41,473 nucleotides of DNA from NCBI GenBank assembly GCA_021841025.1, contig JAKBWA010000037.1, positions 1 to 41,473 of the forward strand. Reading direction: 5' to 3'. The notes below the pieces were generated by a model. That model was not told where the DNA came from. It searched no databases and saw nothing but the letters and a program-made list of their open reading frames with translations. The translations under genes were made by a program, and so were the position numbers. Position 1 is the first letter of the stretch; each line of letters opens with the position of its first letter. Source of the stretch: Bacillota bacterium (GTDB lineage: Bacteria > Bacillota > Sulfobacillia > Sulfobacillales > Sulfobacillaceae). Of the stretch, positions 20,476 through 40,536 are shown in pieces.

Positions 20476-20505
20476 TTGCACATAAATGCCTAAAAAGTGT
20501 ATAAT
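20476..20505 (+). promoter_or_regulatory. tnpA promoter, probably leaderless transcript
   Basis: TTGCAC (20476-20481), an 18-base spacer and a perfect TATAAT (20500-20505). The predicted transcription start near 20512 coincides with ATG 20513 and no Shine-Dalgarno can precede it, so tnpA is probably translated from a leaderless mRNA. Confidence 0.55.
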
Positions 20506-20512
20506 GCAGGGC

Positions 20513-21175
20513 ATGGAACGCACATTAACTAGTCATGAAGTGGCTCACTTGCTCGGTGTGAACATCAAGACGATTCAACGGTGGGATCGCGAGGGCCGAC
20601 TCAAACCGGCCGGTCGGACGGCCACAGGCCGTCGCTATTATACCGAAGACCAAATTCTGGCCTTTCGACATCAGCCACCGGTCACGACGAGTCCACGTAA
20701 GACGGTCGCCTATTGCCGGGTCAGTAGCCAGAGTCAGCGGACCGATTTGAAGGACCAACGGCGTGCCCTGGAACAGTTCTGTACGGCACGCGGCCTCGCC
20801 AACGTGGAGTTTATCGAGGAAGTTGGTGGGGGCATGAACTTCCGCCGCAAGCGTTTTTTGGCCGTGATGGACGCAGTGGATGCCGGAGAAATTGGCACGG
20901 TGATTCTGGCCCATAAAGACCGGTTGACGCGGTTTGGTTATGAGTGGTTCGAGCGATTCTGCCAGCAACACGGATGCGAGATTCTTGTTCTCAACCAGGA
21001 GCACTTATCTCCTGAGCAAGAGTTGGTCCAAGACTTGCTCACCATTACGCAGGTGTTTTCGGCGCGACTGTATGGGTTGCGGAACTATCGCAAAAGCTTA
21101 AGGGAGGCCGTTCATGCCGACGTTAGCACACAGGATCCGGCTGGATCCGACGCCGGATCAGATCCGAGTCTTTAA
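20513..21175 (+). CDS. tnpA: IS607-type serine recombinase transposase TnpA
   Basis: 220 residues. An N-terminal MerR-like helix-turn-helix (L-T-S-H-E-V-A-H-L-L-G-V-N-I-K-T-I-Q-R-W, residues 4-25) precedes a serine-recombinase catalytic domain. The domain has A-Y-C-R-V-S-S-Q-x-Q with the nucleophile serine near residue 71, and later D-R-L-T-R-F-G. This N-terminal DNA-binding arrangement is specific to IS607 TnpA. ATG 20513 is preferred because the promoter predicts a start at that base; ATG 20486 lies inside the promoter. The C terminus runs 62 bases into tnpB in another frame, giving a low-complexity D/S/P tail. Confidence 0.93.
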   Translation: MERTLTSHEVAHLLGVNIKTIQRWDREGRLKPAGRTATGRRYYTEDQILAFRHQPPVTTSPRKTVAYCRVSSQSQRTDLKDQRRALEQFCTARGLANVEFIEEVGGGMNFRRKRFLAVMDAVDAGEIGTVILAHKDRLTRFGYEWFERFCQQHGCEILVLNQEHLSPEQELVQDLLTITQVFSARLYGLRNYRKSLREAVHADVSTQDPAGSDAGSDPSL

Positions 21176-21965
21176 GCAAGCCGTGGGCACCGCACGATTT
21201 GTCTGGAACTGGGCGCCGGCTGAATGGAACCGCCAATACGAGGCGGGTCAGCAGTCCAATGCCACGGCCTTAAAACCGCCATTTAACGCGATCCAGTATG
21301 AGCAATTCCCGTGGTTGCATGAGGTGCCGCGTGATGCCCATGCTCAACCGTTTGCGGATTTGGCCGGCGCATGGCAGCCCTATTGGGAGGCGCTAAAACA
21401 ACGCCGCGAACGCCCAACGCCCAGTGCACGACTCCGCGATTTCTTACACAAAACGTCTACCCGACTCGGCCGCGAAAACCCAGCGATAGGGAGCGAGACG
21501 TTATCGGTGGAAGGTATGATGCAAAACCATCACTTAGCACGGGCTATTGCCGATCAAGGCTTGAGACAGTTTTTCACGATGCTGAAATATAAAGCGGAGC
21601 GTTACGGCACACAACTTGTGGCAGCCGATCACTGGTTCCCCAGCAGCAAACTCTGCTCGACCCCGGGGTGCGCCTATCTCCAGAAGGACTTGACATGGCA
21701 AGATCGGGAATGGATCTGTCCGTCCTGTGGTACCGGCCACGACCGTGATGTCAATGCGGCGCGGAATTTGGCACGGCTGGCAACCGAAACGGCTCTACCT
21801 GTGGCGACGGCTTGGGCAACGAAGCCGACGAATCCGTCAAGAGACGGAATCGACGGGAAAGTCACGCCTGTCAGAGACGAAGCGAGACCCGCTGGCTATA
21901 GGCTGGCGGCTTCGGGGCAGGAAGAAGTCGGTGCGCACCATCGCACACCGATTTTACGCAGATGA
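21114..21965 (+). pseudogene. tnpB: TnpB RNA-guided nuclease, internally deleted (RuvC-I missing)
   Basis: 283 residues against about 400 in full-length relatives. The N-terminal region with the R-F-V-W-N-W motif is present. The sequence then passes directly from about residue 103 (R-E-R-P-T-P) to the R-D-F-L-H-K-T-S-T-R-L helix that normally precedes RuvC-II. The wedge, RuvC-I strand and catalytic G-x-D-x-G aspartate are absent. RuvC-II is altered (G-S-E-T-L in place of the usual I-E-D-L), while the zinc ribbon C-x4-C...C-P-S-C and the RuvC-III D-R-D-V-N-A-A-R-N remain. It cannot be an active nuclease as written. The frame stays open throughout, so expression is possible. Confidence 0.85.
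21928..21951 (+). ncRNA. putative 3' hairpin of the tnpB-associated omega RNA
   Basis: TCGGTGCG (21928-21935) pairs with CGCACACCGA (21942-21951) with a two-base bulge and a 6-base loop. It sits at the 3' end of tnpB. TnpB guide RNAs overlap the 3' end of the gene and end in a stem at the element boundary, followed by the flanking guide. Here the guide would come from about 21952 onward, the start of the next gene. Assignment is by position. Confidence 0.4.
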
Positions 21966-25333: not shown

Positions 25334-25510
25334 TTAAGCGGATGGCCTGACCGACGCCATGTCCAGAGCTGGGGTTTCGAGTCTGCTGACATAAGGACAT
25401 TCCGGATAGTTTTCGCAGATGGCATAGACATCACCCGTAACCTTTAGGGTTTTTTGACGCACCGAGTATTGACGGCATATAGGGCATATCTCTTTACTGG
25501 GGTAAGGCAT
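25334..25510 (-). CDS. small zinc-ribbon protein
   Basis: 58 residues from ATG 25510, which has AAGGAGGG at good spacing; an upstream in-frame start lacks one. The cysteines C-P-I-C (9, 12) and C-x5-C (38, 44 within A-I-C-E-N-Y-P-E-C-P-Y) form a four-cysteine zinc site resembling the topoisomerase-type zinc ribbon. No other domain is present. It probably binds nucleic acid or protein; no specific function can be named. Confidence 0.72.
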   Translation of the reverse strand: MPYPSKEICPICRQYSVRQKTLKVTGDVYAICENYPECPYVSRLETPALDMASVRPSA

Positions 25511-25655
25511 GTTATCCCTCCTTGTGAACAGTTTCACATTTTCATATTAGATCATGTTGCGCTTTTTGACAATACATTGCTCATAAGAAATTCAAAGTTG
25601 ACGGAAAAATGGGAAATATAACGACGTTTGAGAATGCTTGACACTCCCGGGATTC

Positions 25656-25691
25656 TTGCGAGGAACCGACTGACGTCAGCTTGACTCGCAA
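25656..25691. repeat. nested inverted repeats, possible element end
   Basis: TTGCGAG (25656-25662) pairs with CTCGCAA (25685-25691), enclosing the 10-base palindrome CTGACGTCAG (25670-25679). It lies at the 3' side of the structured RNA on the minus strand and may mark the right end of a transposon-derived unit. Confidence 0.45.
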
Positions 25692-26060
25692 AGGGGTAGC
25701 CAAAAGCCCCCTATCCGGTCGCCCGAAGGTCTCCGGTTACGGGGAATGATCGTTCGCCGAATCCTGTTAACGTCTGATCTTGACGACGCGATATATTTTA
25801 CGCCTCCCACGACGGCGGGAGACAACCGCCAATATATCCTATTGTCAAAGAGCGAACACACAGTTAGTTTATCGCGAAACGATCCGGGTCTGGCATTGCA
25901 GGGAAAAACTTTCGTCTGACGGCGAGCGCCTTCTATCCCCGCCCCTAAACAGCAGGGTTTTACGGCGCACTGGATAAAGCTCATGAAAAGCGCCAGGGCG
26001 CGGATGAAGTCTTGCGCCCTGGACTGTTTGGCGCTAAGATTCGAAGTTTTCACCTGGGCT
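25684..26060 (-). ncRNA. large structured RNA resembling HEARO/omega RNA, without adjacent nuclease gene
   Basis: The minus strand folds extensively. Helix CCAGGGCGC/GCGCCCTGG (26014-26022 with 25993-26001) is extended by AGCG/CGCT. A bulge on its 5' side reads AAACAG (26024-26029) and matches the loop CTGTTT (25947-25952) of a CCCT/AGGG hairpin, predicting a pseudoknot. A core follows: GAAGGCGCTC (25924-25933), AGAC-GAAA-GTTT hairpin (25906-25917) and TGCAATGCCA (25891-25900). A later stem GATATATT/AATATATC (25831-25838 with 25790-25797) encloses CTCCC/GGGAG, and a cUUCGg loop lies near 25724. The core resembles HEARO (IscB/IsrB omega RNA) as I remember it. No IscB/IsrB ORF is nearby. An overlapping 125-codon frame is a by-product. 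Confidence 0.55.
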
Positions 26061-26086
26061 CGAATAGGAGTGAGATGGCTGTAGGG

Positions 26087-27259
26087 TTAAAGCCACGTGA
26101 TCAGCTGTTTGAGGCGGTGAATAGTCTGGCGGTTTTGTTCGGCAATCGCGAATGACCTGGGGGTCGTTGGCCTGTCTTCTGCTCTATCAATGAAATGATG
26201 CGGTAAAGGAAGAGCGGACAAAGGTTGCCACCGGTCAATCCAGGACTGGGGAATGACGGCATCGTAATCGAGAGGGCGGTGCGTCATATGAGCCCATAAA
26301 AGCGTCCAAGCGCGCGGAACAACCCGAAGCAATTCATAGCCCCCGCCACCCACCGCGAGCCATCTCCCTTGCGTATATTGATGCGCCCAATCATGAATTA
26401 AGCCGGAAATTTGTGAATAAAAATATGTCGATGCCAACAAATCGGTTAAAGGATCCCAATAATGCCCATCACATCCATGCTGGCTGATAATCAAGTCTGG
26501 CTGAAAGTATTCAAGCGCCCTGGGGACAATGGCTTCGAGGCTTTCCAAATTTGAGTCGTCCTCCGTGTAAGGGCGCAGCGGGATATTAAGGCTCAGAGCA
26601 TAACCTTTGCCCGTACCGAGTTCTTCCACACTGCCCGTGCCTGGGAACAGGTACTGCCCGCTTTCATGACAAGAAATGGTCAGGACATTGGGATCATCAT
26701 AAAACGCTGCTTGCACGCCATCTCCATGATGAGCATCTGTATCGATATACAGGATACGCCATGAGGTGTGTTGCCGGAGCCATTTGATGGAGATGGCGAT
26801 ATCATTGTAAATACAAAAACCGGAAGCTGATCGCGGCTTGGCGTGGTGTAAACCTCCCGCAATATTGAGCGCGTGCAAAGATTCTCCTGTTGCTACCATC
26901 CGCGCAGCGGTTAAAGTGCCCCCCACGGCAAGAGAAGCTGCTTGATGCATTTGCGCAAAGACGGGATTGTCTTCCGTGGCCAGACCATATTTCTGAGCTT
27001 CTTGAAGGAGTACAGGATTGTGAAGGTCAGCATTGTTTTGAAATTGCTGGACCATGGCAATGTAATCGGGATGGTGAATTAACAAAAGATCATCCGAAGT
27101 TGCGGAATGAGGTTCCACTGTGTCAAGATTGGATAATAATCCCATGCTCTCGGCCAAACTGGTGGTTGCCAAAAGCCGTACCGGATTGAAGGGATGCGAC
27201 GGGCCAAAGTCATAGAGCGTATACTGGGGAGAGTAAACAAACCGAGAAAATTGGGTCAT
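26087..27259 (-). CDS. acuC: AcuC-type histone-deacetylase-family protein
   Basis: 390 residues, class I deacetylase fold. Motifs: G-G-L-H-H-A tandem histidines, S-G-F-C-I-Y-N-D, the zinc-site D-T-D-A-H-H-G-D-G, and C-terminal G-G-G-Y. AcuC proteins remove acetyl groups from lysine, classically reactivating acetyl-CoA synthetase. It is divergent (98 bases) from a GNAT-acyl-CoA-synthetase fusion that could write the same mark, so the two likely form a regulatory pair. ATG 27259 has only a weak GTGGA site. The structured RNA follows 27 bases after its stop on the same strand. Confidence 0.92.
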   Translation of the reverse strand: MTQFSRFVYSPQYTLYDFGPSHPFNPVRLLATTSLAESMGLLSNLDTVEPHSATSDDLLLIHHPDYIAMVQQFQNNADLHNPVLLQEAQKYGLATEDNPVFAQMHQAASLAVGGTLTAARMVATGESLHALNIAGGLHHAKPRSASGFCIYNDIAISIKWLRQHTSWRILYIDTDAHHGDGVQAAFYDDPNVLTISCHESGQYLFPGTGSVEELGTGKGYALSLNIPLRPYTEDDSNLESLEAIVPRALEYFQPDLIISQHGCDGHYWDPLTDLLASTYFYSQISGLIHDWAHQYTQGRWLAVGGGGYELLRVVPRAWTLLWAHMTHRPLDYDAVIPQSWIDRWQPLSALPLPHHFIDRAEDRPTTPRSFAIAEQNRQTIHRLKQLITWL

Positions 27260-33202: not shown

Positions 33203-33365
33203 GGCTCCCTTCCTTCGGGTATTGCCTTCGAGGTTAGTTGGTTGGTTCGGGCTGAAGGAACCCTACGCGCGAGCCATTAGCTCCGCGATTCACCCTAGGA
33301 AATCCTAGTAATCCCCCGTACGTAATTGCAACAATTACGATTCGGCACGTGGAGTCGTTGAAAGT
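33203..33365 (-). promoter_or_regulatory. c-di-AMP (ydaO-yuaA) riboswitch
   Basis: The leader on the minus strand carries conserved segments of the ydaO class as I know them: CTAACCTCGAAGGC (33224-33237) near the 3' end followed by GAAGGAAGGGAG, and GGGTGAATC (33287-33295). It also has the GGGGGATTAC segment (about 33307-33317) and the intervening CTAGGA/TCCTAG hairpin. The downstream gene, a LysM-NlpC/P60 hydrolase, is one of the commonest ydaO targets. In this class c-di-AMP binding generally turns expression off. The 3' end runs into the ribosome site, which suggests control of translation or of a terminator that I do not clearly see. Confidence 0.85.
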
Positions 33366-40093: not shown

Positions 40094-40536
40094 TCAAGCG
40101 GGCGGCGGCTTCTGGGCCGCTTTGCGGGGTTTTTCTTTCGTCCCTTGAGCCTCGACATAGCGTTTTACCGTCTCTAAAGATGATCCGCCGCCACTCCCGA
40201 CGTAATAGGCGCGGTGCCAAAAGTATGGTGTCCAGTAAAATTTTGCGAGGTGATCCGAAAACAAAAACGGTTGCGCATCCGGCGCGAGCTGAGCGATTTA
40301 AGGGTGTCGATCAAGATGGAGATATTTAACGCCGGATGGAGGCTGATCACCAGATGGACATGATCAGCTTCTCCGCCGAATTCGATTAGCGTGCAGCGCC
40401 AATCCGTCAGAGTCTCCCGCAAGGCATTGAGAATCTCCGGGGTTAAGGTTGTCCGGCGGTACTTGGTCACAAAGACAATATGTAAGCGAAGAGAGTACAC
40501 CGCGTGTGAGGCAGACAGCATTGCTGTTTCATTCAT
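40094..40536 (-). pseudogene. tnpA: IS200-type Y1 transposase TnpA, -1 frameshift
   Basis: From ATG 40536 the frame reads V-F-V-T-K-Y-R-R and the HUH motif H-V-H-L-V-I, then leaves the family after R-M-R-N-R-F. A -1 shift at the T-runs (plus strand 40258-40267) restores the conserved end: L-A-K-F-Y-W-T-P-Y-F-W, Y-Y-V-G-S-G-G-G-S-S and the catalytic tyrosine in V-K-R-Y-V-E (codon at 40157-40159). It stops at 40094-40096. The repaired protein is about 147 residues, the normal size. Either a mutation or programmed frameshifting in a slippery TTTTTGTTTT run. Confidence 0.82.

Follow-up and report, generated by a model that had tools for sequence, protein, structure and literature searches.

A miniature, gene-less IS200/IS605-type element of the Sulfobacillaceae, probably derived from a tnpB-bearing element and retaining a TnpB omega-RNA scaffold

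The window analysed here is a stretch of 41,473 nucleotides from a Sulfobacillaceae genome. Between an acuC-like deacetylase gene and a small zinc-ribbon gene, its minus strand carries a structured stretch without a nuclease ORF. A sequence-only reading had described it as such, and both the ORFs and a comparison of the fold with shuffled sequence (z −2.9 for 25656–26086) confirmed the description. The extent of 25656–26086 given in that reading was not confirmed, as the conserved unit is 25638–25973 (z −2.0 when folded on its own). In DNA searches 25638–25973 recurs and its flanks do not; 25974–26086 is host flank, and the sequence upstream of 25974 differs at every copy. The features of the locus are as follows.

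26087–27259, minus strand: acuC-like deacetylase gene (an ORF; the name is that of the sequence-only reading), upstream neighbour and possible source of read-through.
25974–25978, minus strand: TTTAT, the target site and expected TAM, abutting the element on its 5' side, judged from TTATC at left ends and TTTAT in the sister copies.
25638–25973, minus strand: miniature gene-less IS200/IS605-type element of 336 nt, a sharp-ended repeat in its own genome and in relatives.
25925–25968, minus strand: left-end hairpin, GCGCC...GGCGC with an inner stem (predicted fold), in a region conserved in the left ends of tnpB-bearing elements.
25752–25857, minus strand: central long hairpin, GTTCGC...GCGAAC, aligned in 31 miniature elements and absent from tnpB-bearing copies.
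25638–25740, minus strand: right end, a TnpB omega-RNA (reRNA) scaffold by alignment and compensatory changes, homologous to the C-terminal codons and 3' end of tnpB.
25645–25652, minus strand: TCCCGGGA, scar of the deleted terminal right-end hairpin (the omega-RNA 3' stem-loop), a 14-nt deletion relative to the sisters.
25622–25637, minus strand: presumed guide of 16 nt, GCATTCTCAAACGTCG, in the host DNA that adjoins the element on its 3' side, placed by its position after TCAA and by the unrelated 3' flanks.
25334–25537, minus strand: small zinc-ribbon gene (an ORF), downstream neighbour.

The repeat was found in eleven further full or partial copies in the same genome, at 94–98% identity and 82–330 nt each, together with one more copy at 80% and more distant pieces. 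Sister copies are 349–353 nt long, and the window copy is 95–97% identical to them. Of 34 genomes from the same family, 25 yielded relatives of the repeat in the DNA search, as against none of 27 genomes outside it; in an exact-pattern scan of the genome contig collection, matches occurred only on three MAG contigs. A protein-coding reading of the 125-aa ORF at 25676–26053 appears untenable, the interval being a repeat with indels between copies and the ORF crossing the element boundary.

The ends of the element are sharply defined. Left ends follow straight on TTAT (in most cases TTTAT) and open with CCAGTGCGCCGTAAAAC... or a variant of it. With the target not imposed in the search, 81 candidate left ends were obtained, of which 67 had TTATC where it was expected and some of the others are chance motif matches; TTTAT was present in all six full sisters in the same genome. 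Right ends terminate in ...AGTGTCAA, with GTGTCAA at the element boundary, and the 20 nt beyond show no relationship from copy to copy (0.12 bits per column at most, 64 ends). These ends, the target motif and the hairpins just inside both ends together make up the anatomy of IS200/IS605-family elements. The target is TTTAT/TTAT here, whereas TTGAT is found in the ISDra2-type comparison. In L140 (128–230) and in the left ends of L122 and L123 the palindromes are perfect where the hairpin arms of other copies are imperfect, as if they had been corrected by template switching. The right end of another copy in the same genome (L035) is broken by GGGGCTGTCTCAAAAGG..., which resembles the end of another insertion sequence.

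In G002 the zinc-ribbon gene follows acuC without the element, which is also missing between the orthologous genes in G003 and G004; the window copy is thus an insertion. At the empty site, TTTAT would be joined straight to GCATTCTCAAACG. The presumed guide has a single perfect match in the genome, its own site, and no second one; weaker matches were at chance level (26 versus 23 for a control).

The same left and right ends enclose a 429-aa ORF in G026 (L063) and a decayed copy of this ORF in G028 (L062). The 429-aa protein scored 189.7 bits against NCBIfam guided_TnpB (cut-off 100), lay above the cut-offs for Pfam OrfB_IS605 and Cas12f1-like_TNB, and contains the NADXN motif, which defines 'Derived' TnpBs (PMC10278001). 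The last TnpB codons (...VARGLLANPLRVKLT*) fall inside the right end that is common to the miniature elements. Two elements of G009 (L064 and L165) consist of the left end and a TTTACA...TATACT promoter-like stretch, followed directly by the right-end scaffold, and are the simplest derivative. Intact tnpB relatives at 81–83% occur in G002. The genome of the window has a tnpB piece that is open over 263 aa (78% identity) and runs off a contig end (C7), plus several fragments; no intact tnpB of the element's type is visible in this fragmented assembly. Three genomes (G011, G016 and G018) gave matches to the miniature element and no related tnpB match, and represent either assembly gaps or scaffolds without a partner. 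None of the inspected loci among six Y1_Tnp matches in the own genome has the ends of the element, and no TnpA with these ends was found. Two other transposon-related loci lie in the window. At 40145–40500 (minus strand) a Y1 transposase (TnpA) match is split across two frames, probably a broken gene. At 20486–21965 (plus strand) there is an IS607-like pair, in which the frame of a MerR-type serine recombinase (229 aa) overlaps that of a short TnpB of 283 aa; because its OrfB_IS605 match is weak, this TnpB is probably internally deleted.

Over its last 103–118 nt the element can be aligned to the 3' ends of tnpB, including those of L062 and L063. Five helices were assessed in 45 sequences, and 87% of the cells pair; sliding the helix partners lowered the pairing to 42–55%. 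Changes on both sides of a pair were seen in 92 cells versus 44.9 in shuffles (45 sequences, all copies), where cells are sequences rather than events, independent changes are fewer, and the counts of pairs and of pair types do not exceed the shuffles. The gene-less copies alone gave 88% pairing and 55 both-side cells versus 27.8 in shuffles. In helix 1, for instance, CCGG/CCGG, CCAC/GTGG and CCAG/CTGG alternate. Some of the pairing may persist as hairpins that serve TnpA at the DNA level. The compensatory changes reach as far as about 110 nt from the element end, in helices 1, 2 and 4.

Both the ISDra2 TnpB omega-RNA (PMC10097598) and 'Derived' TnpB omega-RNAs (PMC10278001) share with the present family a scaffold of about 116 nt derived from the right end and a guide taken from the 3' flank. 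The likeness to the ISDra2 omega-RNA (PMC10097598) includes stem 1 on the 5' side, stem 3 (7 bp, with an inner stem) and a 3' stem-loop with a UUUA loop, here near −20. ISDra2 pairs −5 to −3 with −105 to −103 (PMC10097598); in the present family GUC at −5 to −3 is complementary to GAC near −108, a positional match without a covariation test, as GUC and GAC are nearly invariant. Unlike in the ISDra2 and 'Derived' TnpB systems, the scaffold lies in a tnpB-less element, and the window copy is without the 3' stem-loop, which in a TnpB omega-RNA would be expected no more than about 10 nt from the guide. Judged by its sequence, the right end has the makings of a TnpB reRNA, that is, the 3' part of tnpB plus the right end, termination at the element boundary and stems that covary at the family level.

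The central hairpin has a mean column identity of 88% in the 31 miniature elements. Only one pair shows changes on both sides, so selection at the RNA level is unsupported. Two miniature elements of G010 (L065, 216–320, minus strand; L071, 704–1167, plus strand) have the left end and central hairpin in common with the others and a different right end (...GGGGAGGTTCAA); the hairpin is therefore combined with TnpB-type right ends of two different kinds.

Overall, the feature is very likely a miniature gene-less element of the IS200/IS605 family, PATE-like, derived from a tnpB-bearing element and with the TnpB omega-RNA scaffold kept at its right end. As in PATEs, it is too short for a transposase, is present in several copies and is inserted 3' of a short motif without target duplication; subterminal palindromes occur at both ends in the sisters, and at the left end of the window copy, which has lost the right one. 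The PATEs of Haloquadratum (PMC3119063, notably HqIRS71) are likewise gene-less IS605 derivatives with subterminal palindromes, but they are archaeal and have other sequences, and no guide-RNA role was discussed for them then; the central hairpin also sets the present element apart from them. An ends-only IS605 element of Halanaerobium hydrogeniformans (PMC7290912) is similar in being an ends-only relative, of about 271 nt, of a tnpB element in one genome; that element is a single copy, whereas the present set is multi-copy and family-wide.

The window copy reads GAATCCC^GGGAGTGTCAA where the sisters read GAATCTCCTCCCTTCAGGGAGGGGAGTGTCAA. The terminal right-end hairpin is absent from this copy only (one of 63 right ends) and kept in the other 62. 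A 3' stem-loop close to the guide is conserved in both large TnpB clades (PMC10278001), and TnpA requires such hairpins in DNA (PMC7290912). Because the hairpin is lost and has these roles in TnpB and TnpA systems, the window copy is probably neither mobile nor a working guide and is most likely an immobile, guide-dead fossil. Sisters that are still intact could act as trans guides for TnpB.

From the repeat nature, the ends, the target motif, the tnpB kinship and the compensated pairing, we infer a path that leads over transcription and TnpB loading or binding to cutting. An intact element would be moved by TnpA acting in trans. Its transcript would arise either by read-through from an adjoining gene (acuC, for example) or, as in the simplest copies, from a leftover tnpB promoter, and would form an omega-RNA with the DNA just 3' of TCAA as its guide. 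Full-length relatives would supply TnpB in trans, and TnpB would cut the empty, re-joined TTTAT-plus-guide site after excision by TnpA, which would help to retain the copy. The earlier suggestion of an orphan omega-RNA that might serve a nuclease in trans thus survives in kind, with TnpB in place of IscB/IsrB as the family. The guide had been placed at the 5' end; a TnpB-type guide would instead be the 3' flank, 25637–25622.

A serious contender is a purely parasitic miniature element: the right end would owe its conservation solely to its role as a DNA substrate of TnpA, and no RNA would be produced from it or serve as a guide. Its main argument is the genomes with miniature elements but no related tnpB match (G011, G016 and G018); the element also has no strong promoter, and terminal hairpins are generally known to be needed as DNA in the IS200/IS605 family (PMC7290912). 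We nevertheless lean against it, since the compensated helices 1, 2 and 4 lie well inside the tnpB coding part, beyond the terminal hairpin, and the helices are arranged like those of a solved omega-RNA. The location between two same-strand genes would suit a cis-acting leader or 3'-UTR RNA belonging to acuC or the zinc-ribbon gene, but this is highly improbable: the repeat is dispersed in unrelated contexts, does not occur between the orthologous genes in G002, G003 and G004, and has no terminator-like site, and the promoter-like sites are all weak and lie outside the element or at its edge.

The assignment made in the sequence-only reading, an orphan HEARO-type omega-RNA of IscB/IsrB with its guide at the 5' end, retains next to no probability: it fits in general look (a structured, transposon-borne OMEGA-class guide RNA, no nuclease gene, and a HEARO with an IscB-type gene elsewhere in the genome), but differs in sequence, structure, guide end and nuclease, and both ends of the feature are common to tnpB elements. 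The HEARO covariance model (RF02033) gave no match in the feature, either at gathering or at E up to 10, an outcome that the reading had itself named as grounds for withdrawing the assignment. No other Rfam family gave a credible match to it, the best being a chance one to HOXA11-AS1_3 (E 0.49). The supposed HEARO-like core, GAAGGCGCTC and a GAAA-loop hairpin, belongs to the transposon left end and recurs in tnpB-bearing elements. As to the proposed pseudoknot, AAACAG (26024–26029) lies in host flank, where the sisters differ, and CTGTTT (25947–25952) in the left-end hairpin. A search of the genome for IscB/IsrB and further copies, as had been advised, did find copies of the repeat; the IscB-type gene occurred only with an unrelated, true HEARO. 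This HEARO (121.3 bits, on C106) is unlike the feature and adjoins a 438-aa open frame with an RRXRR match (PF14239, 195.7 bits); the pair is located at L001 1501–1726 and G000:C106:27728–28243. A decayed second HEARO/RRXRR pair was seen in L002 (G000:C74). The genome's RRXRR genes sit beside true HEAROs, and no iscB or isrB ORF is present in the neighbourhood within the window. The window also holds a full-length c-di-AMP (ydaO/yuaA) riboswitch at 33208–33357 (minus strand, 59.8 bits).

Elements of this general kind (PATEs) are already known, and the present one is a further example; the window copy taken alone is ordinary transposon debris. In the literature searched we found no report of TnpB omega-RNAs acting from gene-less elements, with incomplete coverage of the work on TnpB retention and OMEGA systems, so that earlier reports are possible; such work may already have noted gene-less elements with omega-RNAs. 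What will be of note to specialists is the family-wide keeping of compensated scaffolds in gene-less copies, together with the common central hairpin. More broadly, these may be family-wide gene-less guide-RNA transposons that outnumber recognisable intact tnpB, keep a working scaffold, exploit a shared TnpB or supply it with guides in trans, and carry the central hairpin as an extra module, with the window copy as a dead member; we regard this broader reading as finely balanced, tipping only just to the doubtful side. Naturally varied scaffolds with compensated stems are plentiful in the family, which also has a matching full-length TnpB. If intact sisters load into TnpB, a single nuclease would protect numerous gene-less insertions simultaneously, a simple natural case of trans-acting OMEGA guides in which miniature elements would profit from empty-site cutting.
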